Below, piece by piece: positions 9,557 to 60,500 of a DNA stretch of 64,000 nt (its first letter is position 1; each line of letters opens with the position of its first letter). The stretch is from assembly GCA_020746105.1 (NCBI GenBank), contig CM036617.1, forward strand, positions 167,036,912 through 167,100,911, written 5' to 3'. A model generated the notes under the pieces. The model did no database searches, was not told where the DNA came from, and saw only the letters and a list, made by a program, of their open reading frames with translations. The translations under genes were made by a program, and so were the position numbers. The DNA comes from Trogon surrucura. Taxonomy: Eukaryota > Chordata > Aves > Trogoniformes > Trogonidae.

Positions 9557-12500
9557 CTGAGCAACGGAAGAGCAATAAGGTCAAGGTCAGAGTGTACAGC
9601 AGCAGCAGGAGGCTTGAATTCGTTGTTCCCCAGGCACACAGAAGTGAATGAGCCTCCTGCAGTCACCCACCCGGCACAACTTTTCAGTCGTGTTTGCAGA
9701 GAGCACGTGAGCGAGAGAGCAGCAGCCACGGCTGAGAAGGGGCAGGACACGGATGACCCAAGTTGTCGTTACTTGCTTACAAATTTCTGGCTCTACAGAT
9801 CACCACGGCCACAGTTATTCCCCTACATCCTCTTTGCCTCCCACCCAAGAGGGGCCACCCTGAACACTCTGCCCTTTCCCAAGAGCGAGCAGGCAGGTTC
9901 ACTGTCACTTGGGAGCTATGTCTGAGCCACAGTTCCCACGTTACCCAAAACACCCCAGGCTGTGCATTTTGCTGACAACCCGTCATCTTTTCAACAGGCA
10001 GGTTTTCAGTGACACAAGGAAGAATGGGTGCCACACGGATTTCATCACTTTAACTTAGTTACAAAAGCTCAGCCTCTGTTTCCAGAAAATTATGAAATAG
10101 GGGCACAAAGGTGGTTTTCCACTGACCTTTTTTTTTTTTTTAATGCCACAGAAACAGTCCTAGGTCTCTCATTTATATTAGTTAAGATGAATTTAGGAAT
10201 ATGGTTGCAATGAATATGAAATTTTGTTATTCTTCAAGCCAGGGGTCTTTCAGGTTGGAATCTGGGGTAGTTTTTGTCATCTTGAATGGTGAGCCACCTT
10301 GCTGGTAATGCATTTACTGTTTCAGGACCTCACAAGTGATGTGACTGCGCAACAGCGAGTGTGCAGGCAATGTATCTGTTCAGTCTTAAGAACAAAACTA
10401 CATGAAATGAGGCAGAGCAGATTCTCAAATACTTACAAAAGGTGTTGGAGGTAACGCAGAAGTAGTCATCTCCAACAGCGATAAAAAAAACTCTGAAATT
10501 TGGGAGTTGGCAACCTTGAGGATCCTGTCTATACCTTGTTCTCCTACCTCAGTCTTGCAAACAGCTGTACTGAGAAACTGGTCATCCAACTTGTACCCAA
10601 ATCGTGACTAAACTTTTTAGTGTCAGTTTTGCTGCACCCTTGGCTTCCACAGCTCACCCACAGACAATTCACGTGCTCATTTTCAACCTGTGCTACTGGT
10701 GACCTGGAGAACTCTGGGGTATGCTCGCAGACTGCACAGCTTCTGACATTCTTGGCAGAAGTTGCTGTAGGTGGTGGGATGGGGCTACACGCGTGAACTG
10801 TCTACAAGACATTTCACTATTCTGAAGTTCATATTAAGAAGCAAATCCGAAACTCATTAATGCAAGAGACAAGCCCATACATTGCACTAAAGTAACTTCC
10901 AAAGGACTACTCACAGCATGCACTTGAGGTGGTCGATGATGCACTGTGAGCTGAGGTGCTCCAGATCCCAGAGTCAGTCCATTGTTCACAACATACGTAG
11001 TTGTTTGAGGCATTCGTACCGTCATACCTAGAAGAAGCACAGTGAGTATTTTTGAGTATTCGATACTTAAAATCGGCTAAGTGGGAACACTGGAAGACCA
11101 ACTCCTTGGATGCACCGAATTTCACAGCTGACATGCTCTCCTCAAACCACCAGCAGAATGATGAAGTGCTGCACAACAACAAAACCAGCTCCCATCCCCT
11201 GAAGCTGTAAAAGTGAAAGAGACTGAGCGCTTAGGTCTGCAGAGGGGACAGAACGGTGTTTTACTAATTTGTAGCATGAAAAAAATGGGTGGGGAGGAAA
11301 AGCGTAGGAGATATGGGCAGCTTTAAGTATGGAAAGAGAAATTACATCACTTTGGGATTCAGAAAGGAAAAGAGGAATGCTGCTGTAGCCAGATGATACT
11401 CACTCCATACTCAAATGCCAGAAGGCTTTGCTGTGAATGGCACCACAAACAAAAAGGTAAAGTCATAGAATCATAGAATGTCAGGGGTTGGAAGTGACCT
11501 CTAGAGATCATCTAGTCCAACCCCCTGCCAGAGCAGGATCCCCTAGGGCAGCCACACAGGAATGCGTCCAGGCGGATTTTGAAAGTCTCCAGAGAAGGAG
11601 ACTCCACACCCTCTCTGGGCAGCCTATTCCGGTGCTCCGTCACACTCACAGTAAAGAAATTTCTCCTCATGTTGAGGTGGAACTTCCTATGTTCTAACTT
11701 AAACCCATTATTTCTTGTTCCATTGCTGGGCACCAGTGAGAAGAGATTGTCTCCTTCCCCTTGACACCCACCCCTCAGATATTTGTATACGCTAATAAGG
11801 TCCCCTCTCAGACATCTCCTCTCAAGGCTAAACAGCCCCAGTTCTCTCAGTCTCTCTTCACAGGAGAGATGTTCAAGTCCCTTGATCATCCTCGTAGCTC
11901 TCCCTTGGACTCTCTCCAGTAGGTCCCTGTCTCTCTTGAGTTGGGGAGCCCAAAACTGGACACAGTATTCCAGGTGTGGTCTCAGCAGGGCAGAGCAGAG
12001 GGGGAGGAAAAGCTCTCTAGCCCTACTGGACACACTTTTCTTAATGCACCCCAGGATGTCACTGGCCATCTTGGCCACAAGGGCACGTTGCTGTCCCATG
12101 GATAACTTGCTGTCCTTTAGGACTCCCAAGGTCTTGCTCCACAGGGCTGCTTTCCAGCAGGATGTCCCCTAACCTGTACTGGTGCCTGGTGTTACTCCTC
12201 CCCAGATGCAGGACTCTACACTGGTCCTTATTGAACTGCATGAGGTTCCCCTTTGCCCAGCTCTCCAGCCTGTCCAGATCTCGCTGGATGGCAGCACAGC
12301 CTGCCTCTGTGTCAGCCGCCCTAAGACGCTGCCCAAGAAGCTGGTCCTCCCTTGCAGAGTGGACACCACAGGGGATGTTACTCACAGGCGTTACCAGTTC
12401 ATTCTCACAGCAAATTGACCTGACTGGCACAAATAACGCAGGTAATTTTACAGCCTTGTACATAATATCCAGAACCTTTGCAAACTACCAAATGTTCATT

Positions 12501-21500: not shown

Positions 21501-24500
21501 AGTAAGTAGAACTCCTTTCATTTAACACCTATCAGCATTCTCCAACAGTCCTGTTTAACTGAAACACTGAGAAATTAAACATAGTAAGCAGGAAAAGATG
21601 TTTATTCTGTCATTCAAGGGATGAAATAATACTTGTAGCTCAATTACCCCTGCAGCTAGCAAAAGCTTTTTCACGTACCTTGAGAAGAGCCATCATCCTC
21701 TTCATCCAGTGTAAGATCAATGACACCTCCTGAATCGCTTCCTGTGACCTTCCCGCTCTGAAAGACAAAACTCCTTCATTTTGCAAAAGCAAATCCAGGG
21801 AACACAGGCTTTTGGAAAAGGGATAGGAATTGAACATTCAGAAGGAGAGGTCTCAGAGTTGATAACACTTATTAGAAAGGAAGTGATGACATGAGCAGGA
21901 GGAGGAAATTTCTGACAAATTTCCCAAGAATCGAAAATCAGGCAATAACCAAATGACTGTATCATGGTATCAAATATTTAAGTATTTCTAGTTTCGTAAG
22001 GAGTAAGAAACACTGATTGATGACATTGCTATTTCACAGATAAATTAATAACAATTTAGTGTTACGGAGTATCTTTCAGTTATGGCTCTCAGAATTTTAA
22101 CAGAATCGCAGAATCATTTAGGTTGGAAAAGACCTTTAAGATCATCGAGTCCAACCGTTAAACTCATTCTGCCAAGTCCACCAAAGCCACTCCTGGAGTA
22201 GCTTAAGGCAGAATGCATCCCCAGAGAGACACTGGCGCCTTGTCCAAGTTTGTAATCTGTGCTTTCCTCTACAGTAGTATAAGCTTTTGACGGAAAAGTC
22301 ACCGAGAAAACACATTACTTATCTTGAGGCAGCTCAGTCTATGTGCCTATAAAGAAACTGACTTCAAAATAAGAAAAAGGGAAAGCTACACTGGAACCTG
22401 TGTGCTATTAAAATATGTCATCAACGGCAATGAGAAAACTCCAATTGCAGCCAGCTTTTAAAAGTAACTTCATTACTGTATTTTCAGCCATTATCACAAA
22501 TTTTAGCATTATATTATGCTCCGTACGAAGCCATTTGTAACCATCTCTTTAGAGAGGCTAAAAGTATCTTTTAAGTTCTTATGAAGGCGAAACATTGTAA
22601 GGACCCTAGAGGACCGTAGAAAAGATTTATTTTCTAGATCAATTACTGTCCCTTGGCTGTTCAAGGCTAGAGGGACCACCAACATTTTCCTTTTGGTGCT
22701 GAAAAAAAATATTGGGGGAGGTCCTATATATTTCTGGGCTCTTAAACATACTTATATATATAAAAAAAAAATCACAAATGATGTAATTTTCTAATTCCTT
22801 AAATTTTCTGCAAAAATCAGTAGTTTTACGATTTTGTATATGAGGTGATTGTTTATTGTTGGACTGAACTGCTACCAATTTATGGATTAGTAAACCAGGT
22901 TCCTTAGGACAAAGGGTTAGGAAAGCAACAATTATTAAAAGCTCTGAACAATTAACATGGAAAAAAGCCTAAGAGTTACCAGCCCCACAGGGCGTGTACA
23001 AATGACAACACGATAAATCCTGGGAAGATTACAGAGATTCTTCTGTGCAGACAGGTGGGAATAGATGCAAAAAGCCTGAATACTGAGATTATTTGCTCTA
23101 GGACCTTTCGTTTGGGTAAAATAAAGCCTTGAAGGAGGTCCTAACGACAACTCTCATAAGGGCGAGGCTTTGAGGAGAGGGAAAAAGAGGCCATTACATG
23201 GTTACTAAACGCAAATGAAAGCTGTGTCCAAACCCTTGGTCACTGAATTTGGAGTGCCTGACATGATCGATCTCTTCATTGCGCATTATTACAACCCGCT
23301 TTAAATTCTAATACTGCCACTGATGAAATTCTGCCAACAACCTACATGATACCCAGTTTGAATAATATTGAACTACTTATGTTCACAGGTGATAGAAGAG
23401 ATGTCTATAGGGGCTCTATCTTTGCTATACATAGAGAAACATCTTTCAGATTTATTAACCATGTATTTCTTCTGTTGAATGATTCCTATTTCAAAGACTT
23501 TCCAGCTTCAGTTTTCTTCGTATGATCAGCTGATTTACCCACTTGAAGCTTAAGATAAAAGGCACATTCAAATAATCAATGATTACTTGATTAGCACGAA
23601 GTCAAGAGGAATTCCATTCCAACTTGATAATCTTCCAAGTCAATGACGCGTATTTTGAACTACGGTGCTTTCTGCCAGGAGAAAGCAGATTAAAAAATGG
23701 AGGGGGAGGTTTTTACGGAATCGGAGAAAGGAAAAACTAACGCTAAACCATTAATTTCTCCCCATTATAAAATACATTAGTCTGAAGTAATTTCCTTTCA
23801 ATTCTTCCTCTGCAAGGAAATCTTAAATCCTTAGAAAAATACTCTGTACAAGCTGTGTTGAAGCCCTACGTAGCCATGCCAGCCCAGAAAGTTCTTTGAA
23901 CTTCCAAGTCAGTAAGTATTACAGCCTGCTTTTATTTTTTTTTATTTTGGTATGTCTAGAAGGCCAAAATCTTGAGTTAAACCAGAAACTACTAAATGAC
24001 AAATCCAACCAGCCAACAAGGTTGCACAAGCACACTTCTTGGGGAAAAAAAACCCCTTTTTGTAGTTAGCCACACCATTCAAGGTTTTCTGCTAAACAAT
24101 CCTGGTAGCAATCTCCTCAACAGGAATTATCCATAAGCAGTTCTTCGGTTTTCTCCACAACCCACACTAGAAATTCTGGATCTGCAGGGCAGCATTTTGG
24201 GTGCTGCTCTGTGGTACACCCCAAACCCTGGGCAGACAAAACACACACCCCACGAGGACGCTGTACTCCACACATAGTGCACCCTGAAGTCCTGGCTCCC
24301 CAGCCTCTTCCACTAGATTCCCCTCATTCACTGACTGTGCATCTCCCCTGAGTGAAATTTAGGGGCACAGGAAAATTTTAAGGAAACTCGCAACACTGAA
24401 AATATTGTGTTTCCTGCCTAGGGGGGTATGGTGCAGGCAGGTTAACCCCACACAAAACAGACTGTGAATTATGCCTGCCATAAAGGTCAGGATTTTGACT

Positions 24501-33500: not shown

Positions 33501-36500
33501 CCAAGGCAAAAACTCTGAAGTTCAGGCATCGAGTCCTCTGTTCAGACTACAACAAAGTGACAGATCTTATTCAATGTTTGAAAGCCTTTCCCATCAAGGA
33601 AGTTCTCCACAGAATTAAAGAGTTTATCATGGTCAATTTGTTATTCCAGCTGGGATTTTTCTCTTATTTTGTCCAGGGCTGAGCAACATAATAAACACTT
33701 CCAGTGAAGTCCTTAGTGTCATAAACTGTGTGTGTGTATGAGCACGTGCGTGTACACACATATACACACGCATTTCAGAAGGACGAAGCCATTCTTAGTT
33801 CATTAAATTCATACAATGGAAAATTATTTTAAATGCTACGCTGTTTCCTCTTTCAAAGTGGACCTACCATAATTTGTGATTTGATTACCAGTTTTCCATT
33901 TTTATTTACAAGATGATCTCATGATTCGTCCGAATCTCTGCTATTCTACGGCACAACTTTCATGAGAGACAAACCATGAGTTAGATTCTTAGGCGTGATT
34001 CATTAGAAACAAACTATGATTAGCCTTCCTATTTTCTTTTCATTAAAGAGCCTTTTAAATTACAATTTAATTTCTCTTGACAAAATTCACATCCACTATC
34101 CTCAGAATTTTTAACCTGTAAAAATCTCCTGTAGAAAACGTAATCATAGGACCAGTTTACTGTAATGAACTAATCTAAAGAACTTAAACACAAAAATAAA
34201 AGTTGAAGAGGGTTTGGTGGGGGAGAATGTGCTTCTTGTGAATTACACTCTACTGACAAAGACTGTACTGACTATACTTCAGACTGTGAAATGTAATGGA
34301 AGGGGTAGGTGAGAGGAAATACAAAAAACCTCTCAAGATAAGCACATACAGAGACAACATTTCAACTCCAATTACTTGCAACAAAACTGTTCTCAATGTT
34401 TTTGAGAAAGTTTTCCCCATTTCATGTACAAGTGAAGAGTTCCCAATTTTAATATCATTTGTATCAATAGTGCCTTTGGAGAAGAGAATGACTGAAATCT
34501 TAGCCAGAAATATTAAGAAGAAAAAGTAAAGACCTGCAAAACAAATCTGTAGCTCACAGAGAAAGTCAATTTCGAAGGATGTTTAATAAATAAATAAAAA
34601 AGGCACAATCCTCTGGTAGGTCTGATAACAATTTGAACAGAGAGGGTGACAGTGGTCAAGCAATTCCAGGTGTTTTCATGCACACGTATATATTTGTAGT
34701 GTATCTGTGTCTATTTTGTTCAGCTTCTACTTTCTCCGTGCTCTTCAGAAATCAAGTATTTGATTTGTAAGATGCTACATTAGTGCCAGCAGGCACAAAA
34801 TGGTATAATAAACACACTCTTCACAAAATATAAAAGCCATATACTTTTTTTTTTTCTGAAGAAAGCATAGTTCTTCAGCTAAGTGGAAATCAGTATTTCC
34901 CTTTCATTTTTTTTTTAATAGCTCTGCTCAGCCACTTAAAGAGTCCCAGCTGCTACAGAAAGTCATAGAAACTCCAAGCTCTGCTCTATCTAAGTTTCTG
35001 TTCCATAGCTCGCTTCAGGAGTGTGAACAGGATACTTCTTGCTGAGCTGGACCATACAAAAAAATCTCCTTATTAGATCAAGTGAAAAAGCAAATCTGGT
35101 AATTTTTCTATTTTAACAATTTACTTGAAATCAGTTCCATCACAGATGCATCAAGTCATTGGTTCTTGTTTTATCACACGCTTTATAAAGACAGGTTCGT
35201 TGTAACAGCCCCGAAGGGGATTGGCGGTTAGGTTCCCACTGGCCACGTTCTTGGGGAGAAACACCTTGGAAGAACTGTGGTTCAACAGGACGGGGCTTCT
35301 GGAATTCAGAGCTGGGTGTCCCTCAGGGACTAAAGTCACAGCATTAGCGTCAGGTGGCACCACAGATTTTGTAGGGAATAAAACTCTGTTTTTTTCTAGA
35401 GCAACGTGGTTTATAGAAGAGGTGGAGGCACTGGACAGTGATTCTTTCATCACTTCCTTTGGGATCTTGCTATACAGGTAACTGGAGGCGTTATTGTCCA
35501 TTATATCTGACCAAGCCCTGTAGCGAACTTCTGCAGCTCCCCAGTAGTGCCTGATAGCGGACTCAGAGCGATGGCCCGTCACTGCCATTATTTCTCTAGG
35601 CCCCAGTCCTGCTTCACACAGCAGCTGGATGGTGGTAGTTCGGAGCGAATGGTTGGTGTAGCGCTGGGAGAGCCTGGCTGCCACGCTTATCCTGGGCATC
35701 ATGGTACCCAAGTAGTTCACACCCATCGGTTCTCTTTTGTACCAGACAGGCTGCTCTTGCATCTGCTCTGACGTCAGCTTTAAAGGGTGCAGGTAAAAGG
35801 CGGGGGGCTCTGGAGGCAGCTTAGACAAATAAAGCTCCAAGGAAAAAACAGGGCAGTTTGGGTCCCCCGGCATATCATACATTTTACCCATTTTATGAGG
35901 ATCTTCTCCATTTTTCCCTTTGCCAGGGTACCTAAACATAGCGTATCGACGCCCGTTCTTGTCCTTCTCGACAACAAAAGCATCTGGAGCCAGATCTCTT
36001 AAGATCTCCCTCCCTCGCTTGGCAAAATGCAACTGCAAATCAAACCACACCTTGTTGACAAGTGCCAGCGGGCTGTGCAATCCCAGCACGCCGGACTGTT
36101 TAATCTTACGCAAGTCCTCAGCAGATATAGGAGGATGGTGGTGAGTCTCATCCTTCCCCTGCATGCGCAGCATCTTCAGCACGCTCACAAATACCATGTT
36201 GGCACTAGCAAACTCTTTGTCCTTCATTAAGCAAATCTGACGATTGTAAGGTGGCATTTTGAGATGCCGGTTTAAGCCAGCGCGCATGGACTTGTAGCTT
36301 GCCACGCTGTAGGTGTTTCCATCGTGATTCCTGATTGTGTAATAAAACTCTCTCAAGATATCATTGAGTTCACTTACTGGGACCAATTCAAAGCTAGGGT
36401 CTTTGCCATTTTTGGCCAGCCACTGCTTTAATAGGTTAGCTGCCCAGCCAGTCTGCTTGTGGGTGTTTTTGATGCTCTTAGCATCCTCTTCCTCTTCCTC

Positions 36501-39500
36501 CAAGCCAAAGAGGACATCCTCGGGGAAGTTAAAATTCGGCTGTGCTGCTTCTACCGCTTCTCTATTTTCTGATGAAGTCGCTTCCTGTTTCAACTGCTTT
36601 TTGAAACAATTGATCAAAGTTGTACCATCAAACATGCCACAGGTATACGGCACACAGCGAACTACTTTTTGATCTGAGAGCTGTGAAATGCGGAGCAATA
36701 TATAACATTTTGCATTTTACGTAACAAAAAGCAGGTGGCATTAACTGGATTTTTCAAATGATACGGGCATGGCAATTCCACACCTCACTAGCCAATTAAA
36801 ATGCATTAAGTCCTTCTTTATTAACCATGGCATTACACATACTCTAGCTGATTTGACTGAATGCAAACCTAGAAACATACACTATAACAGAAGACTGAAA
36901 ACCAGAAAGCATCAGGTGTCTTTTATTTCCCTCCTCCTGGCTCACCTTCCAATCCTAATCCATTCCTCTATCACACACAATCTCTTTTTCCAAATATTTT
37001 CCAGGTTTCAGGCTCTACCAAAGAAGAAAAATTCCAAAAATACGTATTTTATACTGAAAAGTCTTAAACCTGGACATCTGTCATCCATTCCAGTACTGAA
37101 CTTCCTGCATACCAAGTACTGACAAATGTTTTAATAGCTATAATCCACAGGTATGTTTGAAAAAATGAAGTTCCAACCAACCATTCTTTATTAAAGGCCT
37201 TAATTATAAGGTAGACTGAGGCATAGTTTATATTCTGTAATACTGGTTATCTTTGACAGACTATTTCTGTGAAAGGTGAAAATCAATCTTGTCCAGTATG
37301 TTTTCTTCTTGTTTTGAAATACAATTCAGATTTAACTGTACCTTGAAACGCTACTAAATATGTCAAGTTTGACTAGAAGAAATTAGTTTTATTTCCCTTA
37401 ATAAAATGACTTCTGGTTAACAGCAATGCAAGTAATAAGGTGCTTTGTCAAATATCTGCACGCAGAAAGGAAATTTATTATGAATGATTTTACAGAGCTT
37501 AATTTCAACCTTTAAATTTCAAAGCAAGTTCAACAAATTTTAGGCAAGGAATCCAGAAGTACCACAAGTCCTCCTTTATCATGAAGTAGTTATTTGTGAA
37601 GAAAGCTTCTTTTCCTTTTTATTTTTTTCCCCTGACATACGGCAATAAAAATTCTGATTAACTTCTGGATTGCTGTGGAGATGAGAGAGCTGCAGTAATT
37701 TACAAAGTATTTGTTGCTTTAAGCCCTTCGGACAAAAATTGGGCAGGGTTCTTCAGTATGTTACATCAGTTTTATCAGACAAGTTTTTAGTGTGCTCCTG
37801 AATTACTAACTCACCTAACTTAACCGAACCCCACCAGAAAACTTCTGAGAAGATTATCAGAAGCTCCTGTTCCAAGTAATATCCTGGGTCAGAAGAAGAA
37901 GAAAAATACAAAACGGACAGAATCTAGAAAGGATGGCACAAAAAAGAAACTAAAATTGTTTCATTAGAAGCAATAAAAGTAAAGAACTTTTCCCCTGTGG
38001 ATTGTAACTTTAGAATTTTATAGAGAAACAATCAACAACCTACCTGTGCTGTTCCCTCAGCAGTTCGCTTGTTTGCCGAAGTATCTGTTGGTGGCCTGCT
38101 TGTCTGGTTTTCTGAGGGGTCAAGAAATTGTTCATTTGCAGCATCTAATTGGTACTACATACTGCTATCCACTATACAAATTTGGAGGCAATATTTAAAA
38201 TTGTTTGATACCAAACATTCATTGTGTGGCACATTCAGCATTTTTCAGCCCCAATTTTCAATTACAAGTATTCAGGCTTGATTACCATCATTTCTACAGA
38301 GGGAACAGAAAAGCAAAATGGTACTTCCCAGCCTAAAAGCAGTATATGTTCCCTTCCTTAAAAGTCTGACAGTGTACTCAAAACCTTTTACGAACAATTT
38401 CCTTGCCTACCCAAGTACAAAACATAACTCCAACGTCTCATCTCTATGTAAACTGATATTAAACTGAAAAAAAATCACCATTATTCAACGTTTTTGTACA
38501 AAAAATTGACTGAACAATGGCTGGTCAGACTGTAAAACACATAAGTGACATAATTTGTGCAGGGAGACTGAGTATCAGCCCAACGTGTATCTAAAGTAGC
38601 AACTTAAGCAGAAGCTGCTTGAGTATCTGTTGTAAACATTTAAATCCAAATTCTCCATTCTCATTCCTTTTCATTTTAACCACGGCTTATGAGCAAGTAG
38701 GGTTTCAATTCTGGTGAAAAACTACAAGGTTCTAGACTAAGGCTACGGGAACTGCATAAAATGAGACACATTTTTTTGGACACGCAGGCCCTTCCTTTGG
38801 TCACTTTGCCTGATCTGTCCAGCCCCTTTTTATGTTGTGTTAAATCAGTTCAATTTAGTTTTAAAGCCAAAAATCAATTCAAAGCATGTCACTGTACAAC
38901 TCTGTGGAAGACATATTTTAAATCAGGTAACAGAGATGGGAAAATGAAAGAAAACTTATTCTGATGTCAAGCTCTATCTGAGTTCATTTTGACATTATAT
39001 TGCACCGATGAGAAAATTGCTAAAATTTCTACTCACTTAGGGAATCTGGGCACCTCTTAGTAAAAACAAAAAATTCAAGATATGCAAAATAAGTTTAGAG
39101 AATCATCATGGCACGGCCAAATATAGAAAGAAAGTATTTTAAAACAGTTGATCTAGATACCATTATTTGAACGTTCACCGTGTTCAGACATTTTATTCTA
39201 CGTAAAATAAACACACTTCTTTGGAACCACGTTAGTATTCAGTTGCATTTTTTCCCCGCAGTTTGTTTACTTTTAAGAGTGAAAATTAAAGTTAATGACT
39301 ATACTTTTCTTTCAGAATGTCTTTGCTTAGAAAGGCAGCCAGATTATTTTGAGAGGCTGCATTAAAAATAAATACCAAGTTGTTAATGGTAAGAGTTTCT
39401 GACTTCATGCCAGAAATGATATAAATCAAGTTCTAACTAAATCCAGGTTTACAGAGCCACACCTCCTAAGGAGGGATTATTTTCAACAATGGCTGAAACA

Positions 39501-42500
39501 CATCTACGACAGAGATGATTTTGATCTTGACCATCGTAGCAGAAAGGCAACCCAGAAGAAATGTCTCCGTAAAACACACCAACAAACAAATTTCCACAGG
39601 AGAGCAGTTCTGCAGTTCCCTTTGACAACTATTCTCCTCTCCCAGCGTCAACATTCAAGCGTCACTTACCAACTCTGGGGGCTGTAACGGTGGGTGCTTC
39701 AACAGGAGCTGTACTACTAAACGCAGAGAGGGGAATCTTCATCTGTAGGGGGGCTCGATTGCTGGCAGCGTTATAAAGTCCTGAAGTACCCACTGTGGGC
39801 AAAGAAGTCCTTGTGGCCTGGGCAACAGGATGTGCAGAAGAAACCGCCTGTACTGCCAACGTGGTGCCTATCGATGCAGCGCTGGCTGGAGAGTTCCTCT
39901 GAATACTAGAACTGGCCACGGACGGGCTGTTATTTGGTTTAGCTGGGTTAGTCGACGCCAAAGACACTGTCGTTTTGGTAAGGCTACCGATTGTAGACGA
40001 GCTTTGTACAGATATAAATTCAACGTTGCCCGACTGTTGGTTAGTGACCAAAGTCCCTGTGTGGCTTTGCAGGAGTTGAGGTTGGGATGACACCGCGACA
40101 GGTACGTGCAAGATTACGGGCAAAGACTGCAGCGAGACAGACACTGACTGAGCGCTGCCGCTGGGCACTGGGTTAGTGCCTACAACCGTAGCTGTGTTAG
40201 CTGTGGGAAGAACTGTTGTTGTCAAAGAGCTGGTGGAGGTCACTGGAGCCTGAGGCTTAGGTTGTGCACTGATGAGTGTCGGAGGAGCAGCAAGACTGGG
40301 AGCTGGCAGTACATGCACCAAAAAAAAAAAAAAAAAAAGAAAAGAAAATTAAGTATTTGAACTAAGTGGGAAGTTTCACTTCAACACAACAAATGACTTA
40401 CAATGAGGGTGGTGAATCATTGGAACAGGTTCTCTGGAGAGGATGTGAATTTCCCAGCAGTGTGAGTGTTCAAAAGTGTGGCTGGATGGGGCTTTGAGCA
40501 ATCTGATCTAGCGAAAGGTGTCCCTGCCCATGGCAGAGGGGTTAGACTACGTGACCTTTAATGCTCCCTCTGATCCCAAAATATCCTATCATTCTATGAA
40601 AAATGTGGTACATGACTAACTTTTTTGCAAAGAAAGGCTATAGATACTCTTTTTCTGTTGTGCACTTTGATATTCAATGGCCTACTTAAATACACCGTTT
40701 GAAAAAAAACTATACCTAAATGGCAAAAAAATAAGATATACAAAGAACTCCGACACAGTTTTTAAGGAATCTCCAGGATCTAACTGCTGAAAATAGAAGA
40801 AATACAGCATTTTAAACACTCATTACAGAAATGCTAGATCAACTGCTCCTTCAGAAAACACAAAAGAAAAACTGTCAGTTATGACTAACTTGCTTTGTAC
40901 AGGTAGGACCTTGTATCCAAAATATTCTACTGAAAGCAAGGATTAATGTGTTCAAGAAGATATTCCCTTTTATGCAACAAAGTTTTAGGAAAAAATCTAA
41001 ATATCTTGAGCATAATATACTAGAGAAAAACCAATATATACCTACTATGAGATGATTCTGCAAAAAAGCTTCAATATTAGGTAAACTATTTTTAAAACCA
41101 AGCATTGGGTGACTACAATGAAGGTGACCAATGGTGGTTTTGATTCTACATTGCCTATAAATTCTATCTAGAAATTCCATTTTTCAACTTGATGCCCTTA
41201 AGAAATGGGGCTTATGACTTGCTTTAGTTCCCCCATTTGACTTCTGTAGCCATTAGGCGGAGGGGAAGGTATCAGCATCCTGCTATGATCAAGTACAAAA
41301 AAAAACGGCCTTTGAGTCCCACGTTTCAGTTCTCGGCAGCCAAGGGACTGCAAGTTTTGTTGACACGCCCAGCCAGCAGTTTGCTGAAGCATCTAATTTA
41401 CCCACGTATTCTGAGTGGCCAAACCAATGTATTTTTTCGCTTACCTGGTAAGTGCACTACACAAATATAAACTGGGAAGGTGGAAAGGAGTAAAAATAAT
41501 GTCAGAAAAGTCCTAAGACTCAGTTTTGCTCTGTTCCATTAATTACTTATGTAATGGAATGCAATACAACTTTAAGGAAACGTGTTTACAGCCCACGTGG
41601 TTTCTTACCTGGATTCACAGGGGTTTGAGAAGTTGCTGGTGTGCTCTCCCCCACACTCCTCTTTGACTCCAGTATCTGTCTCACTGTGCCAGCATTTCTA
41701 CAGAACAAGCATTTCTCAATGAGTCAACCAGGGACAACTTTGAACAGTGTGACAATGAAAAAAATTCTAGTTGTTTTTTCACTGAGATTTTCTAAACCCA
41801 TTTATTTTCCGAATCCCCTTGCAAGTTAACTTTGGATGTTCCCCTACTAAAAAAAAAAAAAGTACTACTTGTAAATTTACAAGTTCTTGCACCCACTTTT
41901 GCCTTTCACCATGAAAATTTTCCCTTCTTTGAAATAAACTTCCGTTTTTATCCATTACTTTAAGTGCTGAAACAACACTCATCTTGGTTTACCCAAGAAC
42001 AGACTGGACACTGCCTCTTTACGACTTCTGTGAAAGAAAATGAAATTTTACAACCAAAGAGCAATCAAAGAAAAGGAAAAGCACTTTAATTAAATAAAGA
42101 AAATGGAAAATGCAGGGATTATCCATTACAGGAGGTATCTCAACCGTCCTATTGTTAATTTTAACACGGTCACAGTGATGTGCCTGCTTACCGATATGGT
42201 GCACTGTTTGTGTTTGCAGCTTCACTTGCTGCTTTCCCTGGAGACACTGGTGCATTTGGTGAATTCTAAAATGGAAGAAAGAGAGAGAGAGGTCGTAACA
42301 AAACAACCATAAGCCAGTTTGCAATCTTCTGCTTTCATTATATTTCATGTTCTTTCATTTCTGTGTGAGATACATATTTTCTGTAGCAAATGCCGCAGGG
42401 CAACTTGACATGTTTTATAACCCTCAAAAATCTCCTTGGTCCTACCTGCCTCCCCCTCTCCTATATCACCCCTCTTTATAAATCTCTCACCTTCAGGTTT

Positions 42501-45500
42501 TTATAGCATAAGATTCAAAATTTCTTCTTGAATGTTAACAGACTTTCAGCTTCCACTTCTTCACAGTATATAATCCAGAACATTAATTCTAGACACGAAA
42601 ATACTAGCATTTGTATCCATTCCCTCTACTCTTCCCTCTTCACCCCCAAAATCAAGGTATGGGGTTCACTTATTTACTCTCTGTATTGAAGTAAATTAGA
42701 TCTACTTATACAGAGTTTAATGTGCTTTCACACTAATAATGCCTACAGAATTTTTTGTTAAAATCACAGTTACATAACAGATGTTAGAAGACTATTCTTT
42801 CGTATTACTGCCTTTAACGAAACAAGACAAACTTATTTACGAATGCCACTGAACAACTAGGTCACATTTTTCTTCCTGTGAAATGTCTGTATTTTTCAAC
42901 ATAAGGTTTAGGTTAACACAGAAAAACAAAGATAACAAATCCAGTTCTTACTTCCTGTCTTTTCTTCAAGTCCTCCTTGGCTGCTCCAAACCGCTTTGTC
43001 AATCTTGCAATTTTAGCCTAAACGGGAAGAAGATGAAAAGTAAACAAAAGAAACCATAAATATTCTCTCCAAGAACCGTCAAAGTATACAAACTTGAAGA
43101 CATATAATTAAGACATCAAGTCAAAGGCTATTTTCATATCAGAGGAAGTTGTTCTTCCTTGAAGAGGGGTGAGGCATTGGAACAGGCTGCCCAGGGAAGT
43201 GGTGGAGTTGTCGTTCCTGGAGGTGTTCAAAACACGTGTAGATGCGGTACTTCAGGACATAGTTTAGCGCTCATGGTAATGTTGGGTTGACAGTTGGATT
43301 TGATCTTAAAGGTCTTTTCCAACCTTAATGATTCTATGATTCCTTGAAATACAGTACTACTCAATTACTTCAGAGCAGCAGAAAGACACACACGTGTATC
43401 ACAATCAAGATATCTTAGAGACAACTCGAAGTATTTTCCTTTCTTATTCAAAACAGCAAAACGGAATGTATCTTGCAGAAGTCCACACAATATTCCACAG
43501 GAATGAAAGCAACTGAAAACATTTGTTTTAATGCCTTTATGTACCAACCATATTGAAATATGCACCCGTTTTGTCTGTTGTATCATCTACTCTTTGCCCA
43601 TTTGTCCTCCTCACTGGCACACTACATATCACTCACACCTTACTGACAGGTTTGTTTCACTCTATCTGGTGTTCTGGTGTCAGGTTCATTATCTTTTTAA
43701 GCACCGTTCTTAGATCTCGTCTTTAACTTCTTGTGTTTCCCTTAATATACTCTTTGGTGTCCATTCATTCTGTAATAATCTGCCTCATCTAGGCTGAAGT
43801 TCTGATGGCTGCCTTATTCTGGAGGCAGCAGCTGTGACACTACTTTTTTTTTTTTTTTCTTCACAGAAAGAAGAGTTAAATTCTTTTTATAAACTCTTGA
43901 AAAACTACGCTAGCACTAGAAGAAGTTTTAAAAATCAGTATGTCTCACATACTGTAACTTCAGAACTTCTTACCTAAAAGTAAGTCCATTCAGAAGTCTC
44001 ACCTCTCACATTTTTACAAAGCAACCTGACAGGCTACAATTGTAGTCTGCCTTTAATTACAATTACGCTTCTGTTTGTTTTTACAATGTTGAAGCATTTT
44101 GGAGCAACACCACGTAAGTTTAGATTGTGAGTACATCAACACATTCACAGACTTATGTTACAGATTTGACACTGCAGCTGATGGCTAAAGATCCTAATGA
44201 ACGAGGACACTGAAAGCACCTTAGTGTTTAACAAAAGCTCAACATAAAACACATAAAGTGGCAAGGGGAAAGAGTTATGTAGTACAACCTGGTCTGGCAA
44301 ACTCCATACTTGTTTACGCTACATGTAAAATGGCCTTACTGTTTGAATTTGTTATGAGATAAGCTTTTAATTGTCTTGTCACCTTGAAGTTATTTGATTT
44401 CTATGGTGTTCCTCTTGTTACCACTAGGCACACCATTTCTGTGAAGAATGCAAGAAAGCACGCTCCACTCAATGCCAGCTGTTTGTTTCCTTGCTAGAGA
44501 TAACTATTCCGTTTCTGGAGAAATAAGATGGGTATCACATAATGGTTTTTTGTTTGGACATTCTACACAATCCAGTGCTGCTGCCCTCTCCTTTCTGCAA
44601 TTTTTCATTTTTAAGCAAATTTCTGGCTTCATAGAGACATTAGATATTTCCATGCTTAACATTCATTTGAAAAATGTCTAAACGGAACAGAAGAGTGGAA
44701 AAGCTATTTACTAACAGCTAATGAATCAGTTTGCTGGAAGGAAGATTTGCTCCGGCGTTTCTTTTTGATGACTAATGAATTGCTTTCTTTTCTTCTGAGT
44801 AGGGAACGAGAATCTTACCACTCAAAAGCAACATTAGCATTTGCTGCTTCCTTCCCACCCTTCACTCTGTGGTGTGAAAATGGTTTTCCTACTGACAACT
44901 ACAGGAGACTTCCAACTAAATGCTAAGGAACTTATTTTTAAATTTTACTCTAGTATGCAGTTCAAACAAACACTCACCTTTAGTTCAGTAAGCACAGTTT
45001 TATGCCTCTTGTTACATTCTACTTTTTCTATTCGGGTTTTCAAGTCTGCCAGAGTCTTGTCAAATACAGCACACTGTAAAGCAGTAAGTTTTTCTTCTAA
45101 TAGTCTCTGGATAACCTGTAAAATTATTATTAAAAAAATATAAATATAATCCTAGAATTTGGGTATAACTTAACAAATATCCTGCTTCAAACAGAACTAT
45201 GAGAATGGTCGTGCCCTGTCAATCAAATAGGTCTACAGTCAACAATAAGCGTGAGGTTGCGCAGCTAAGAAAAGCTTCTACATCTATTTTGGCAAATACA
45301 AGTGGTCCCTCTGTGACGTTAACTCAAGAAATTAATTTCATTCCAGTATAAGTGTATAAAACCTTAACAACAGAAGATATTTTCAGAAATTGCTGTGTTT
45401 ACACAAGTTAATCTTTCCTTTTACTTTCCTGTTCTTGAAAAGGACACTGACATTCAAAGAACAGAAATCAAAGATGTTCAACAAAGCTTTATTTGAGAGA

Positions 45501-48500
45501 TGCATTTTCCTCTAGGAAATACCTCTTTTACAATAGCTAAAAATGGGAAGAGACTGATTTACACACAGTTTACTTGACACTCTGTTTAATTTTTTCTCCC
45601 TCCTAGACTTACTGCAGCCAAAAATTTTCCTTAGGAAACAAAAATAAGCAAACACGGTTTAGTTTTCTGTATCCTACCTTAAAAAAAATTACAACATGCA
45701 CTAGCTAACTAACTAATGGAAGGGCACAATTTTTTTTTTTTCCTTCAAGACCACAGGTTTCTTTATGTGCCAATGGTTCAATGAGGCAACTAACAGCTCT
45801 ATAAAAATCTGCAGAATGCCAAGTTGACTGCCCTCTTACTTGGAGACAGACTTTCTTTAAAGCTAGGAACACAATAAAGCTCACCACATAAACCTTTACC
45901 ACACAGAAATACTTACTTTGCTAAGATGCTACCTCTACAGTCATGAGACTTATGAGTTTAAGTATTTCTTGCACTGTAGTTTTCAAATGGTATTTGGTCT
46001 CTTAAAACTAGGGATATATACAATTTTATATGAACTAATCCACCTTTGTTATTTGAATATTTTCAAGCACAAAAAAGGAGAAAATAGGGAGGATAGCAAG
46101 TGTGTGGGAAAAGACAGCTAATTAAAAGATGCTAAGACAAGTGACAGGTGTGTGCTTGCCCTGTGTGCTTTGCACCTCCATTCTACCTGTTGTATTTTTT
46201 GGTCAACATCCTTTCTGGTTGTAATTTTTACTTCAAGTTCTGCTTCATAATCTTCTCCCATGTACCGACGACGTTTAGAATGAACACTGTCTATGTCCTC
46301 AGATTTGGAACGCTTTCTCCTTGACACTTCACCTGAAACAATTGGATACAACTGCTCGTGAGGAATTTTTGAAAAAACAGGTATCTGCAGAATGCTATGA
46401 TTATTATAAAGGTTCATTTGGTCCCCAGTTTAAGCTTTTTCATCCGAAACAAGTAAAAATGCCTTTGGAAAAAGATGATTTTAGACAACACAGAAGTAGA
46501 AGACCAGTCCCTTTCACCTCAGTACACTGCTGCCCTGTTACTGAGTGTTGCTTTGGGCTTCACCAAACCATTGCCCCCAAAATAAAGTGGCTTTAGTACC
46601 ACCACTTCCTTCTGCAGAACTTGTCTCTGGTTCCTCCTGCTCCTATCAGCACCATCCCATAATGAAACACGGCTCATGAGACGCAAAACAAAACACTCTT
46701 CTGAAAACAGAATCCTCTTCTCAGGATTCCAGTCAAATAAAACTTGTCCTGTCTGTGTCAGTAATGAACTTTTTTTCTACTAGCCACGAAATTTTAACCT
46801 CAAATCCCTGACTGAAAAAACATTCACAGAATCCCAGAATGTTAGGGGTTGGAAGGGACCTCAAAAGATTATCTAATCCAGCCCCCCTGCCAGAGCAGGA
46901 TCACCTACAGTAGTAGGTCACACAGGAACGCGTCCAGACGCCCATTCAAACCTTTTTATAGAATCACAGAATGGTGAGGCTTTAAAGGGACCTTAAAGAC
47001 CATCTAGTTCCAACACTTGTGCTATAGGCAGGGACATCTACTGTTATCAGGTTGCCCAAAGCCTCATCCAACCTGCCACGAGCACTTCCACAGAGGAGGC
47101 ACCTACAACTTCTCTGGGCAACCTGTCCCAGTGCCACCACCCTCAGAGAAAAGAATTTCTTAGTATCTGATCTAAATCTACCCTCTTGCAGTTTGAAACC
47201 ATTGCCCGTTGTTCTATCAGCACACTTCCTGATAAAGAGTCCCTCCCCATCCTTCCCGCAGACCTCCTTGAGATACTGGAAGGCTGCTATAAGGTTTCCC
47301 CAGAGACTTCTCTTCTCCAGGCTGAACAGCCCCAACTCTCTCAGCCTGTTCTCATAGGGGAAGTGCTCCAACAGGTCCACGTCCTTTTTATGTTGGGGGC
47401 CTCAGAGCTGAATGCAGTACTCCAGGGGGGGTCTCACCAGAGTGGAGTAGAGGGGAAGAATCATCTCCCCGATGGCCACGCGTCTCTTGAGGCAGCCCAG
47501 GATGTGACTGGCTTTCTGGGCTGCCAACGCACACTGCTGGCTCATTCAGTTTTTCACCTGCAAAAACCCTCAACTGCTTCTCCGCAGGGTTGCTCTCCAT
47601 CCACTCATCTCCCAGCCTGTATTTATGGCTGCGAATGCCATGATGCAGTTGCAGGACCTTGCACATGGCCTCGCTGAACTTCAAGAAGTTTGCATGGGCT
47701 CACCTCTCCAGCCTGTCAAGGTCCCTCTGGATGGCATCCCCTCCCTCCAGCATGTTGACCACACCACACAGCTTGGTGTCATCAGCAAACTTGTTGAGTC
47801 CATACACCAAATACACAACTCTCCAATTTAGAGATAAGGATGTCATGTGAGACAGCGTTAAATGCTCTGCACAGGTCCTGGCAGATGATGTCACTTGCTC
47901 TTCCCTTCTTCACCAACACGGTAACCCCATCATAGACGGCCACCAAATTTTTCAGGCACAATTTGCCCTTAGTGAAACCACGCTGGCTGTTGCCAATCAC
48001 CTCCTTATTTTCCATGTGCCTTAGAACAGTTTCCAGGAGAATCCACTCCATGATCTTGACTGGCTTGTAGTTCCCCAGGTCTTCCCTTTTTAAAAAATGG
48101 GGGTTATGTTTCCCCTTTTCCAGTCAGCAGGAAATTCATCAGACTGTTACAACTTTTCAAATATGATGGCTAGTGGCCTAGCAACTTCATCTGCCAGTTG
48201 GCCAAGGACCCACAGATGCATCTCATCAGGTCCCATGGACTTGTGGACCTTCACATTCCTTACACGGTCTCAAATCTAATCTTCTCCTGCAGTGGGAGGT
48301 TCTTCATTCTCTCAGTCCCTGCATTTGCCTTTGAAAGCTTGGGCAGTGTTGCTGGAGCACTTGCTGGTAAAGATTGGGGCAAAAAAGTCACCGAGTATCT
48401 CATCCACCTCCATATGCCAGGTAACAAGGTCTCCCGTTTCCTTCTGGAGAGGAGCCATATTTTCCCTATTCCTTTTATGACCTATATACCTACAGAAGAT

Positions 48501-51500
48501 TTTCCTGTTGCCTTTAACATCCCTGGACAGATTTAATTCTATTGGGGCTTTGGCTTTTCTAACTGATTCCTGGCTGCTCAAACAATTTCTCTGTACTCCT
48601 CCCAAGTTACCTGTCCTCATTTACACCATCTCTAGGTTTCCTTTTTGTGCTTGAGTGTGTCCAATAGCAGCCTGTTCATCCACGTCAGCCTTCCCAAGTT
48701 TTTGCCTGACTTACTCTTTGTCAGGAAGCATCGCTCCTGAGCTTGGAGGAGGTCATTCCTGAACACTGACCAGCTTTCTTAGGCTTTCTTCCTTCCAGAA
48801 CTTTATCCCATTTTACTTTACCAAGCAGGTCCTTGATGAGGCCAAAGTCTGCTCTCCTGAAGTCCAGGGCAGTGAGCTTGCTGTGCAGCTTACTTGCTGC
48901 CCCTAAGGATCTGGTCGCTGCAGCCATGGCTTCCCCTGAGCTTCACATTCCCCATCAACCCTTCCTTACTTGTGAGAATAAGGTCCAATGTAACTCCTCT
49001 CCTTGTTGGCTCCTCTGTCACTTAGAGGAGGAAGTTATCACCAGTACACTCCGGGAACCTGAAGGTTTGACCTACATAATCTCCAAAGGTCTCTTTCAAG
49101 CTCAATGATTGTGTATTTTTAACACGTGCCACCAGTGACATGTGATAGTTTTAACATTACATACTTCTCTCTGCATGTTTCTCTTCTTCTTTGTGGGCCT
49201 CTTCTTTATCCTCCTCACTTTCCATTCTTGTCTCCTCCTCCACCTCTTCTAGAAACAGAAGAAAAAAAACCAATCTGTGACTTACACTGACCTATAAAAG
49301 TATCATAAGAGTCCTACTTTGACTACTGAACTTAGAATATTTATTAAAAACCATGTTGGGGAAAGTGAGAGAAATAAGTATGACACCGAGGAAATGCAGA
49401 GATTAAAAAAAATAAAACACAACAGAGGATACCTTCAGAATCAAAATTGAAACAACCACACAATACAGTAAGATTAATTTCTGGATTTGTTCAGCTTTAA
49501 AAATCAACAGAATGCCTCCAAGTTATGTCTGAAATGAAACAATGTATTTTTAATGTAGTTAAAGTTTTCAATAAATTATTTTATTTATTTTTCACCTAGG
49601 AAAGAAGTATAAAAATTTCAGTATCAAAATACTAACAAGTTTCTCTGTTTATTTACTATTGGAAAATTCACCCACAATCTTTATGGTAGAAAAGGTCTAG
49701 GTTCCTCTTTTCATTTAATGTTTCTTCCTAATACAAAGTATAACAGTATCGGACTAGATATTTTAAAGCATACCGTTCAGAAAATTCTCAAATAAAAATC
49801 TGAAATAACATCCCCAAATGCACATAGGTTAAAATGAAAAATGTTAATACTTCTTGAAAACTTATCTGTTCCATGAACTTCTACTATGTGTTTTGTACAG
49901 GCTGTATTTTCTATCTCCTGTGCTTGCTAGATGCAACACAAAACCACTACTTTTAAGATTGCATTAAAATCCACACACAGAACATAGCAGAACAAATCAA
50001 CACTCTTATAGGCATAGCTTGATCTGTACACTTCTCCAATTTTCTATTTTCACTTTGTTATTACTGCAGAGTTTACTAGTTATTTTAGAGAAAGTTCTGG
50101 CTGCAAAGGGTATGCTTGTTGCTGTCTGAACACTAAAATTAACTTCTATTATGAAGTACATTTGAGTGGTTTAAGATAAGTTGCCTAATAAATGACAAGA
50201 AGGACAGAGCTGGAAGACCCAAACCTGAAATTATGGTATTTTTCTTTTTGTTACTTTATGCAAGGAATAGTATTCATACCACATAAATTCTTCAAAACTA
50301 ATCTCATTTATTTTTAAGGTAATAAAATGGCATAGTGCCTACACCACTTGCTGATAGATAAGCTTCATGTATTTTATCAATAAAATAGGACTCATTTACC
50401 CAAGAATCTAAAGGAAAGTCATTAAGTGTGAGTACTTTTTTTCCACAAATTGCAGATTCCATTATTTTAATTACTTCCTTATTAGTGCTACTACTGTTTC
50501 ATTAAAGCTGGTTTTAGTTTTCTTTTCCAATCTGTAAGTATTTCTGCATTATCCCTTTTTCCCTTCCCCTTGGGGAGGGAGATGGGTTATTAGACAGCAC
50601 CTGTCATTCGTTCAGTGCTGGCCCAGCCCCAAGCCTGAAATATTCACTGAAAGATACAAATACTCCATGGAAAGATATGCATACCTATGAAGTCCTTAAA
50701 AAAAAAAAATAAATTATGTTACAAGTTCCAAAGCCGAGCTTTTTCAGTTCCATGTAGAGAACAAAGCAATTTCAGGGACAAGCAAGTCTTTTCCTTACAG
50801 ACTTCCACCACTCTGTGAACAAGTTTTCCCCATTTCACTAAAGGAGCTTAAACACAAGACACAGCTAAAACTCTCTAACCATAATACAGATATAATTTTA
50901 CAAGTGTCTATCAGCTTATTTTTCACTGATTAGCTGTGATCTCATTATCTTGATGCTAGATAGGCAGAAGCAATGAATGCAATCGTTTAAAAAATTAATT
51001 TGATTACAACATAAGTTATCACTGTATCACAGAAAACATAGAATCATTTAGGTTGGAAAATACCTTAAGATCATCAAGGACAAACATTAATCTAGTTTAT
51101 GACACACTTATCTTAATTCACCCTATTTGCTGTGGATCTGAACACAAAAGGTTCTTTTCTTTTTTCCTACGTGTTTGTCTGTCACTAAACAGTTGAACAG
51201 AGTTTTTAACAATTTCTACAACTGCAAACATTTAGATCTGTTTCTTCACTGTCTGGACGTTTATTTGGATGTCAGGTCTGCCAAAATATACTTATAAATG
51301 GAAGTAAAAATACTGAGCATCTGAACAGTATCTGCAAGTTACTCTGGACTGCACGGTCATACTCTCACTATTCCATAATCCTGTAACCACAACGTTCTCC
51401 TTATACATTGGCTAGAGCTGATGCACACAGACACCAACCATAAGGAAGTACAAAAGCAGTGTAAGCAGTGAATCCTTGAGCAAACTCTACCCAAAAGTTA

Positions 51501-57500: not shown

Positions 57501-60500
57501 AACACCTAAATAAGATCTTTAAAAGAAACTATGGAACCTAGTTTTTCTCTGTTTAATTGGCATAAATTTAAAGATAAATACCAGAAAAGAAGGAATGGTC
57601 TGAAACATGGCTGAAGAGCCATATTCTTATCTCCTTTTCTCTAGTTTTTTAAAGACTGAAGACTCAAGAATGCCATCTGTACTGGGTTCAGCTAGGATAG
57701 GGTTAATTCGCTAGCCGGAGCTGGTCAGGGTGGGGGGCGCTCTTTTCCAGTGCTCGGTCGGGCGCTGCGCTGGGTTTTTCCAGGTGGTGAGATCCACCTT
57801 ACATGTTACTTGCGTTATATCTGGTTAAACGTTATTGTTATTTCACTGTTATTGTTACCATTTATGTTCACCATTAAAACAAACTTTTTTATCTCAATCC
57901 CACGAGGCCTTTGCCTGCGCTCCTTTCGGGCTCTTCCCCTCACTCTCGGTAGGGGGGGAGGGAGCGACCACGTGGTTCCTTTGTTTCCTGGTTCCTTTGT
58001 TTCCTTCCTGCCGGTAACTCGGCTGAACCACAACACCATCGCACATTAGGGAAAGACAGTTTAATCATTAGAGAATTGAGATCAAAAACTATGGTTACTA
58101 ACTTCCCAGAGACTGAAAAACACATGGATCTTATTTAATCCATGGAATTCCTACCCAGTCAAGTATGTTTACACACATTTGGGTTTGCACGGTTGTTATT
58201 TCATAAAAAGCTATACATATATATGTGGGGGAAGAAGAAAAAAAGGAAAAAAAACCCACCCAAGATAATGTGAAACAACAGCTTTCTTAATTACCGCACT
58301 GGGTTCATCTAGGATGGAGTTAATTTTCGCTAGAAGCTGGGAGGGGGGCACAGCCTATCCCTGAACGGTTTGGGTTTCTGTTCAGCTATCCCAACCAGCC
58401 ACTAGCCAAGGGCATATTCAACACCATCATGATGTCATGCGTGGTACATATGAGGGGAGCTGGCAGGGTTCTCTCTCTTCATCCCTCTGAAAAGCTTGGG
58501 ACGCGTGCACAGGGCTGTGTCACTGGGTTCCGGGCGGCAAGATATCTGCGCTGCACATTACTCACGTTATACGCTGTGTAGTTAAACACTGTCGTTGTTA
58601 CTGTTATTCCTTTTTTCTGCATTACTATTATGTTTCATCATTAAAAAAACGTGTTCTTATCTCAATCCCACGAGTCTCTATCTACTGCTCCTTCTGGATT
58701 CTCCTCCTCATTCCCAGTAGGGGAGGAGCGAGCAAGTGAGTAACCTTGTGGTTCCTTCCCCTGCCGATCAGTCAGCTTGAATCAATTACAGATAGAAGAG
58801 TAGTGTCAATTTGACTGCAAATTATTCACCTGTTTGATTTTCAGAAATACATATACATAAAAAAATGCTTACAAAACTGTATGATAATAACAGACTACAG
58901 AGGACATTCATTCAGTTTAAGAAAAATCTTTCGCTAACTACATGAAAAGAGTAAAGTATGGGCCTCCTACACTTAATGTTTTCAAATGTTAATCAGTTGG
59001 CATAGTCATCAGATAAAAGTTAGATAAAAAACACTGTTAGTTAAATCAATAAAAGCAATATGGCATGAATACCACACATGACTTGCATTTTTCCAAAACT
59101 GTCTTTTAGTGAAAAAAAAGAAATTTGACTCAAGTAGGACTTGCGGCATGCCTGGATTACCAGCATGTTTTCACTCTTACTGCTTATTTGCACACTCAAG
59201 AAAGCTGAAATTCTTTCTTCTCCTCAAGAATAGTAAATGAACACATTTCTCTCTCTACAAATCTGTTACACGTCTGGCTACTGCTCATCTTTATTCTTCT
59301 ACCCACTAACCCTATTCCCATTTTGTGAGGAGTGCGAGGAAAACAAACACAATAAACCACAAAACAAACCAGATCTTCAAGATATCATTTTTTTTGGTGT
59401 TGCTTGCTTTTATTTTTTTCCTGAATCTCAAATTCCACCCTAGAGAACTCTATGTACTACAGAATCGGTGGATAAGACTGTCTTTTTGATTTAGAAACAT
59501 GTCACATGTGTGTCATTCTAAGAATTAAATTAAATCCTGGACTTGAATTGAAACTACCAATTTACAAAATTCTTACCTGGAAGACTTGATTTGTTTGGTA
59601 TTATCACTTCAGCCTGTTCCTCGTTCTCCTCACAGGGTTCATCTTCATCAGACAGTACTAAGAAAGCCTCCTTTGGCAGGCTTTCATTGCTTTCCTGCTT
59701 GGATGGTGAACCCAAAGAGTTGTCCATTTTCTCTTCTAAATCTGGGACTGTGTCATCCACTGGAAGCAGAGAACTTTTAGAAAAAGAGCTCAGTTCATCT
59801 TCAGCAGGAGCTAGTTTTTCCAAAATTGGAATAATTTCATCTGTTTCCATAGAGTCAGTAGTGTCCAAGATACTTTCACTTGGCTCATCTATTTTCTTCT
59901 GAACAGTGGTTTCTGGAAGACCTGCAGGGCTGTCCTGTTTGTCCTTTGGTTCCTGATCAGCTTCCATACTGCTAGAGATGGCTGCCTCTCCAACAGCATC
60001 TTCAACAGTTACTTCTTCAGTCCTCTTTTCTTCACCAGATGAATCAGAACTAATAGTTAAGTCGTTCGTTTCTCTATTCTCTTCAGAAGAGCCACTAACA
60101 TCGCAGTTAGATCTATTTTCACCTTCTGATGGGATGTCACCCTCTCTTTGGTCCAAATGATCATCTGTATTATTTTCTTCATGGAAGTTATCCTTATTGC
60201 TACCAAGCACCCCATTTTCAACCTCACAAGTTAAAGCAGTATCACCATCTTCATCTTCCTCAAGAGTAACATTGTCTGGAGAGAGTGTTAGAGGTTTCAG
60301 TTCTGTGTCATTGACTATGCTCCCTGCTCCACTTTCAGGGCTTCTGGCTTCGCTAATTTCATCAGAAGCTGTTCTTCCTTCTTCAGAATTAGCACACAAG
60401 TCCACTAGGCCATTAACCTCTTTCTTGTCCTCTGTACAGTCTGAATTGCTTAAAGGGGAATTTAAATCAGAATCTCCATTCTCATGCTTTCCATTTAACA

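Follow-up and report, generated by a model that had tools for sequence, protein, structure and literature searches.

A Crypton tyrosine-recombinase exon within ATF7IP as the candidate alternative last exon of a DNA-binding, SETDB1-recruiting isoform

The 64,000-nucleotide stretch of Trogon surrucura DNA analyzed here (contig CM036617.1, positions 167,036,912 to 167,100,911; hereafter the window) carries on its minus strand exons of the gene ATF7IP, one intron of which holds an open reading frame for a Crypton tyrosine recombinase (YR). This frame is a candidate alternative last exon, from which a fused protein, called ATF7IP-YR below, would be made in place of ordinary ATF7IP. Coding exons 1 to 9 of ATF7IP, numbered from the ATG at 60630, occupy positions 59577..60630, 49165..49248, 46187..46332, 44978..45115, 42952..43017, 42192..42265, 41609..41697, 39670..40302, and 38044..38111, respectively. 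Their GT-AG joins yield 784 residues and end in a phase-0 donor at 38044, the last of them being the same exon 9 that was named in an earlier note on this DNA. One partner for this donor is an exon at 21679..21757 (minus strand), which we take to be the SUMO-interaction motif (SIM) exon, and a frame at 9140..9580 (minus strand) holds the FN3 domain of ordinary ATF7IP (PF16794, E = 7.3e-43).

The alternative partner of coding exon 9 is the YR exon at 35151..36680 (minus strand), comprising 509 codons and a TGA stop. It starts 1.36 kb beyond coding exon 9, follows a CAG acceptor in phase with the exon 9 donor, and belongs to a stop-to-stop frame (36716-35151) of 521 codons. The translated frame matches the Pfam family DUF3504 (PF12012) with E = 2.2e-15 and 57.5 bits (cut-off 29.7), and its Phage_integrase score of 23.9 bits falls under the cut-off of 27.1. 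At its C-terminus the exon encodes VIKQEPMT (35154..35177, minus strand), which includes a psi-K-x-E motif, and about 230 bases past the stop an ATTAAA at 34914..34919 (minus strand) is, by motif match, the first possible poly(A) signal.

Within 36720-36560, additional in-frame acceptors place the first exon base at 36596, 36593, or 36584, and all three are open to the end of the frame. The first two form a tandem NAGNAG pair (36593..36596, minus strand), giving exons that begin QLKQE and LKQE. In contrast, the AG that comes next after the CAG acceptor starts the exon seven bases on, out of frame, and reads IKK followed by a stop. The earlier note had described an intact 509-codon Crypton frame on the ATF7IP strand, joined in phase 0 to exon 9 to make a protein of 784 + 509 residues (1293 in total), and had called for a profile check against DUF3504. 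The open frame, the matching phases, the assembled length, and the PF12012 match all bear this description out. Its reading of the next AG as out of frame with an early stop is likewise correct, although the shift is seven bases rather than six. Its further conclusion that only one acceptor works must be abandoned, as 36596 and 36593 together serve 81 of the 109 public fused models described below.

A search of public proteins with the fused protein (a query without coding exon 2, in which the YR part alone was scored) matched 143 proteins, of which 120 were listed. Among the matches listed, 108 clusters (P0061-P0168) correspond to ATF7IP-YR, and 106 of these carry both the ATF7IP_BD domain (PF16788) and PF12012; the exceptions are P0167, which lacks PF12012, and P0168, which has FN3 and a short YR piece. 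Because clustering was done at 90% identity and one species can contribute several isoforms, the cluster counts are not species counts. The hosts are birds, turtles, the frog Ascaphus, the sharks Chiloscyllium and Heterodontus, and the ray Narcine, and nearly all of the clusters bear the name ATF7IP, P0064 and P0167 being exceptions. A chimaera model (P0008) begins inside ATF7IP and joins the YR exon at the same place. The exon 9 junction is identical in the bird, turtle, frog, shark, ray, and chimaera models.

In the set of 109 models formed by these 108 clusters and P0008, the first acceptor (Q/LSDQ and variants, the slash marking the junction) is used by 28, including the shark, ray, chimaera, and frog models, the second (Q/QLKQE) by 39, and the third (Q/LKQE) by 42. 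Duck isoforms cover all three (P0068, P0136, and P0138), with X2 and X3 representing the NAGNAG pair and X4 the first acceptor. Given how RefSeq builds isoforms, the existence of fused models that differ by the single Gln of the NAGNAG pair suggests that RNA reads lie behind them, and we infer that the public fused models rest on such reads. Some of the species with an intact frame very likely make the fused protein. The earlier note had called for a test for orthologues at the same intron, and the fused junction does recur at one and the same exon end in lineages ranging from sharks to birds. Similarly, its proposal of an in-frame fusion that keeps the ATF7IP_BD half and exchanges SIM and FN3 for YR is supported by the 106 clusters, by the shared exon 9 junctions, and by protein conservation, but the idea had already been published (PMC3212892).

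A saury (Cololabis) ATF7IP model with both domains, P0176, was rejected as support from ray-finned fishes and is not among the 106, because its YR lies past the SIM exon and it groups with other teleost rows. It carries a different, teleost-type Crypton YR, which may reflect either a second such insertion in the gene or an error of the gene model. Two bird models, P0154 and P0168, suggest that the YR might be used as a cassette exon.

The insertion itself has a published history. Kojima and Jurka reported the Crypton YR inside the ATF7IP intron in 2011, predicted the alternative splice of ATF7IP to the YR at a time when no fusion mRNA or expressed sequence tag was known, and described partial Crypton sequences at the orthologous site in human, horse, kangaroo, and platypus (PMC3212892). 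They found the frame intact in zebra finch and frameshifted in chicken and turkey, and suggested that the YR may be translated within ATF7IP and may retain catalytic activity in some birds. A 2022 study placed the insertion in the ancestor of jawed vertebrates and noted intact frames in alligator and chimaera (PMC9004415). Both papers concern the same locus, intron, and frame as the exon in the window. The ATF7IP-YR locus, its intact frame, and its predicted splice are already known, having first been described in 2011. The available text of the two papers gives no fused transcript. What the present analysis adds is a set of fused public models spanning the jawed vertebrates, extra acceptors, conservation measured for each segment, and more lesions. 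Two later papers, as far as their available text goes, treat HUSH, SETDB1, and ZMYM proteins and not the YR exon (PMC10380595 and PMC10579616). In the literature searched, which most subscription journals lie outside, we found neither a later functional study of this exon nor, in the portions available, an answer to the possibility of catalytic activity raised in 2011.

A frame of this kind could also be a separate gene nested in ATF7IP, with its own promoter and start. Indeed, P0007 (Pseudopipra) consists of the YR only, P0001 and P0005 continue in frame upstream as far as a Met, and 29 of the 109 fused rows have a Met before residue 132 of the YR exon. These early Met residues stand, however, at several different places (10, 29-30, or 48; the window exon has one at residue 16). 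Upstream of the acceptor, the window frame is closed by a stop just before 36716, with no Met between the two, and the fused junction recurs across lineages. In the remaining 80 of the 109 rows, the earliest Met in the included portion of the YR exon is residue 132 (YKSM) or a later one; rows on the later acceptors begin after the first 28 residues, which limits this count. The conserved N-terminal core residues would need an upstream exon in those 80 rows, and the distribution of Met speaks against a shared start within the YR exon. Against the separate promoter and 5′ exon that the earlier note had listed as a refutation, the lack of a common early Met is indirect evidence only. We regard a nested gene as quite improbable.

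Protein conservation was assessed in an alignment of the window with 19 public proteins, in which the YR core comprises 319 residues and which leaves the SIM and FN3 exons outside; a separate alignment covered 31 of the collected rows. Core identity to the window is 99.4% in penguin and duck, 99.1% in emu, 96.6% in green turtle, 91.5% in softshell turtle, 83.4% in frog, 78.7% in chimaera, and 78.1% in two sharks and the ray, and the seven aligned birds without a broken frame or tail span 97.5-99.4%. Coding exons 2-5 (residues 352-510, part of ATF7IP_BD; absent from the chimaera model) are 91% identical in penguin, 87% in duck, 83% in emu, 81% in green turtle, 77% in softshell turtle, 64% in frog, and 41-44% in sharks and ray, and for coding exons 6-9 the identity to sharks and ray is 37-39%. 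For the tail of the YR exon, the figures are 65-83% in the six aligned birds where no lesion was noted and 31-39% in cartilaginous fish. In all 19 proteins, no other measured segment of the fused isoform is as well conserved as the YR core. Among 11 deep ATF7IP-YR rows, 212 of the 319 core sites are invariant, and 44 of the 51 sites that are at least 80% conserved in 46 other Crypton-like rows have the same residue, invariant in the 11 deep rows. The psi-K-x-E motif, which is the SUMO consensus, stands at the C-terminus in all 98 of the 109 rows whose end is native; each of the remaining 11 carries a lesion, is partial, or splices onward. The IKQE end is kept from chimaera and sharks to birds, though the tail before it is poorly conserved.

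These values bear on two readings in which the YR would matter little as a protein. In the first, the exon mainly sets dosage, with early polyadenylation leading to a weakened or dominant-negative ATF7IP and the YR carried as a passenger. The exon is terminal and has possible poly(A) signals nearby, and loss of FN3 alone weakens silencing in mouse cells (PMC7706265). A mere stop, however, needs no 319 residues held at the identities seen in the seven intact birds, nor a core that outranks every other measured part of the isoform, and we consider the dosage reading unlikely. In the second, the exon is conserved as regulatory DNA, as might be suggested by the frameless fragments that persist in mammals (PMC3212892 and PMC9004415). 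Conservation is instead uneven in a domain-like manner, with a core of 98-99% against a tail of 65-83% in the six aligned birds where no lesion was noted. Cores from lesioned lineages tend toward lower conservation, though the ranges overlap. These patterns make conservation as regulatory DNA very improbable. Orthologous DNA from which the ratio of nonsynonymous to synonymous substitution rates could be computed was sought in viral_contigs and genome_contigs, and no relatives were found there.

A tree was built from 76 of 81 rows (P0016, P0057, P0058, P0059, and P0169 were dropped for short coverage) by a quick search that gave long-branch warnings. In this tree, 19 ATF7IP-YR rows, including that of the coelacanth (P0010), form one clade with a support of 99 by the Shimodaira-Hasegawa-like approximate likelihood ratio test (SH-aLRT), and the clade lies inside a 49-row set with Crypton-like proteins (SH-aLRT 99). 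Cartilaginous fish come first in the clade, then frog and coelacanth, turtles, and birds, an order that broadly follows the vertebrate lineages, with several forks left open. Fish Crypton-like proteins (P0012, P0014, and P0020) are 40-43% identical over 72-80% of the YR exon and have the same R-H-R-Y catalytic residues, but they form a separate clade, and the bird element was found once in its genome. A protein search of the Trogon genome (1.17 Gb in 164 contigs) recovered the ATF7IP copy plus three remote matches (37, 24, and 20% identical), counts that are lower bounds because only the best candidates were scored. The multiple similar copies expected of an active Crypton transposon were not found by this search. 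An active or recently active transposon sitting here by chance would account for the intact frame and the R-H-R-Y residues, yet the single copy and a clade that broadly follows its hosts leave it close to excluded. PF12012 itself gives 16 matches in the Trogon genome, at about eight loci and several of them split, and none in 14 control genomes. Four further loci with PF12012 split over matches (C15:11.86 Mb, C27:1.22 Mb, C1:20.31 Mb, and C13:12.71 Mb) are presumably ZMYM and QRICH1 genes.

The active site was read in 119 rows, ten of which are without an aligned residue at H370 and Y379. Among the rows aligned at each position, Arg occupies R222 in all 118, H344 and R347 are unchanged in all 117, and H370 is unchanged in all 109. 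At Y379, 106 of the 109 aligned rows have Tyr, and the other three have Cys (P0141 and P0005) or Leu (P0016, a sturgeon record). The R-H-R-Y residues are kept in the window and in most orthologues, from sharks to most birds, and are also found in the other Crypton-like rows. The active-site region of a profile built from 64 sequences matches XerA (E = 0.0056), the HxxR, GH, and Tyr elements falling in register. The best solved match of this profile is QRICH1 (E = 4.2e-12), aligned only before the active-site region.

The three other aligned DUF3504 frames of the Trogon genome have lost the Tyr and the second Arg. One (L002), which from its architecture we take to be KCTD1-like, has Gly at R347 and no Tyr at 379, both of which ATF7IP-YR keeps, and its His in the H370 column sits in a run of His. 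Another (L003) differs at all five of the R, H, R, H, and Y positions, and the third (L004) keeps R222 and ends before the remaining catalytic positions. This loss is the hallmark of degenerate domesticated DUF3504 proteins and was reported for all other domesticated Crypton genes (PMC3212892), including ZMYM2, ZMYM3, ZMYM4, QRICH1, and KIAA1958; ATF7IP-YR, a domesticated DUF3504 protein like these, does not share it. One feature near the beta hairpin has changed, in that the Lys-Asn-His motif (256-258) of the other Crypton-like rows is not kept in ATF7IP-YR. K254 is present in 117 of 118 rows; K256, which is Lys in 93% of the other Crypton-like rows, varies (Arg in turtles, hoatzin, and cartilaginous fish; Pro in frog); and His258 is present only in the ray among 107 rows read.

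As judged from these residues, catalysis by ATF7IP-YR is possible. The protein might have been domesticated as a working recombinase or topoisomerase, cutting and rejoining DNA while recruited to SETDB1 chromatin, as the nearly invariant catalytic residues and the register with XerA would allow. The altered Lys-Asn-His motif and the pigeon protein without its Tyr argue against this activity, and we hold it to be a doubtful alternative. We likewise think it improbable that the fused protein cuts DNA. We are equally skeptical of a broader version in which sharks, frogs, turtles, and birds have kept, since a jawed-vertebrate ancestor of over 400 million years ago, a host-owned and catalytically competent site-specific recombinase that is tethered to SETDB1 and makes programmed or protective breaks at chosen sites.

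We consider it probable that the YR exon is an alternative last exon giving rise to a DNA-binding, SETDB1-recruiting isoform of ATF7IP. A CryptonA recombinase gene would have inserted in the ATF7IP intron before the jawed vertebrates split, and its coding part would have become a last exon to which coding exon 9 can be joined in phase as an alternative to the SIM exon of ordinary ATF7IP. The fused protein is predicted to keep the ATF7IP_BD half, to lose SIM and FN3, and to gain the YR and a tail ending in psi-K-x-E. It may then serve as a sequence-specific DNA-binding adaptor that brings SETDB1 and histone H3 lysine 9 methylation to sites chosen by the YR, and not via MBD1, ZMYM2, or SUMO, the last being another partner route by which ATF7IP recruits SETDB1. 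Because ATF7IP_BD is present, the window exons presumably include the SETDB1-binding region, and the fused isoform would be expected to bind SETDB1. The SETDB1-interacting region is essential for silencing by ATF7IP, and the FN3 domain binds MBD1, ZMYM2, and ZMYM4 and tunes silencing efficiency (PMC7706265). With somewhat less assurance, we lean toward DNA binding as the main work of the fused protein.

Several observations weigh against this explanation. The Crypton frame was lost in mammals (PMC3212892), and some bird models, in which sequence or model errors are possible, carry lesions. The frame is lost just 3′ of the HxxR helix in galliforms (P0157-P0162) and hoatzin (P0163), the mousebird model (P0155) ends early with a different tail, and the catalytic Tyr is the Cys noted above in pigeon (P0141) and in record P0005. 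The mammalian loss and these lesions show that the YR exon is dispensable in some lineages. Its presence in related birds, which the earlier note had made a test, thus holds for most bird models, where the frame is intact, and fails for those of galliforms, hoatzin, and mousebird. Over the 280 core residues before the frameshifts, identity to the window is 95.0% in galliforms, 95.7% in hoatzin, 91.4% in mousebird, and 97.9% in pigeon, as compared with a median of 98.9% (range 95.0-99.6%) among 91 further bird clusters, including two partial ones. The two groups overlap, since takahe (P0149), with no lesion noticed, is also at 95.0%, and the comparison is descriptive, the rows being related and the lesion events numbering only about four. 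In addition, fused gene models may copy each other, and P0154 and P0168 leave the YR exon part-way through, continue into the SIM exon, and retain FN3. Outside the 109 rows, P0005 ends in IKQVP and P0006 has another end, neither with psi-K-x-E. The early Met residues in 29 rows and in the window exon must be counted on this side as well.

Elsewhere in the window, a 138-codon open frame in an ATF7IP intron (52791-53204, plus strand) has a weak zf-Mss51 match alone (E = 0.034). Open frames at 11515-12168, 46985-47401, and 53801-54034 (minus strand) are without a Pfam match and, judging by a motif, presumably represent remnants of CR1-type repeats.

A parallel to ATF7IP-YR is offered by isoform b of KCTD1 (DUF3504 and BTB), in which a one-exon CryptonA YR is likewise joined to a transcriptional repressor via alternative isoforms (PMC3212892). 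If the SETDB1-recruiting explanation is true, the splicing of one gene would pick between recruiting SETDB1 through partners such as MBD1 and ZMYM2 and recruiting it through a captured DNA-binding fold of its own. The FN3 domain that would be discarded binds ZMYM2 (PMC7706265), which is itself Crypton-derived, and the fused isoform may therefore accomplish in cis a task that ordinary ATF7IP performs in trans. ATF7IP-YR would also provide an assayable domesticated tyrosine recombinase in which R-H-R-Y is intact.

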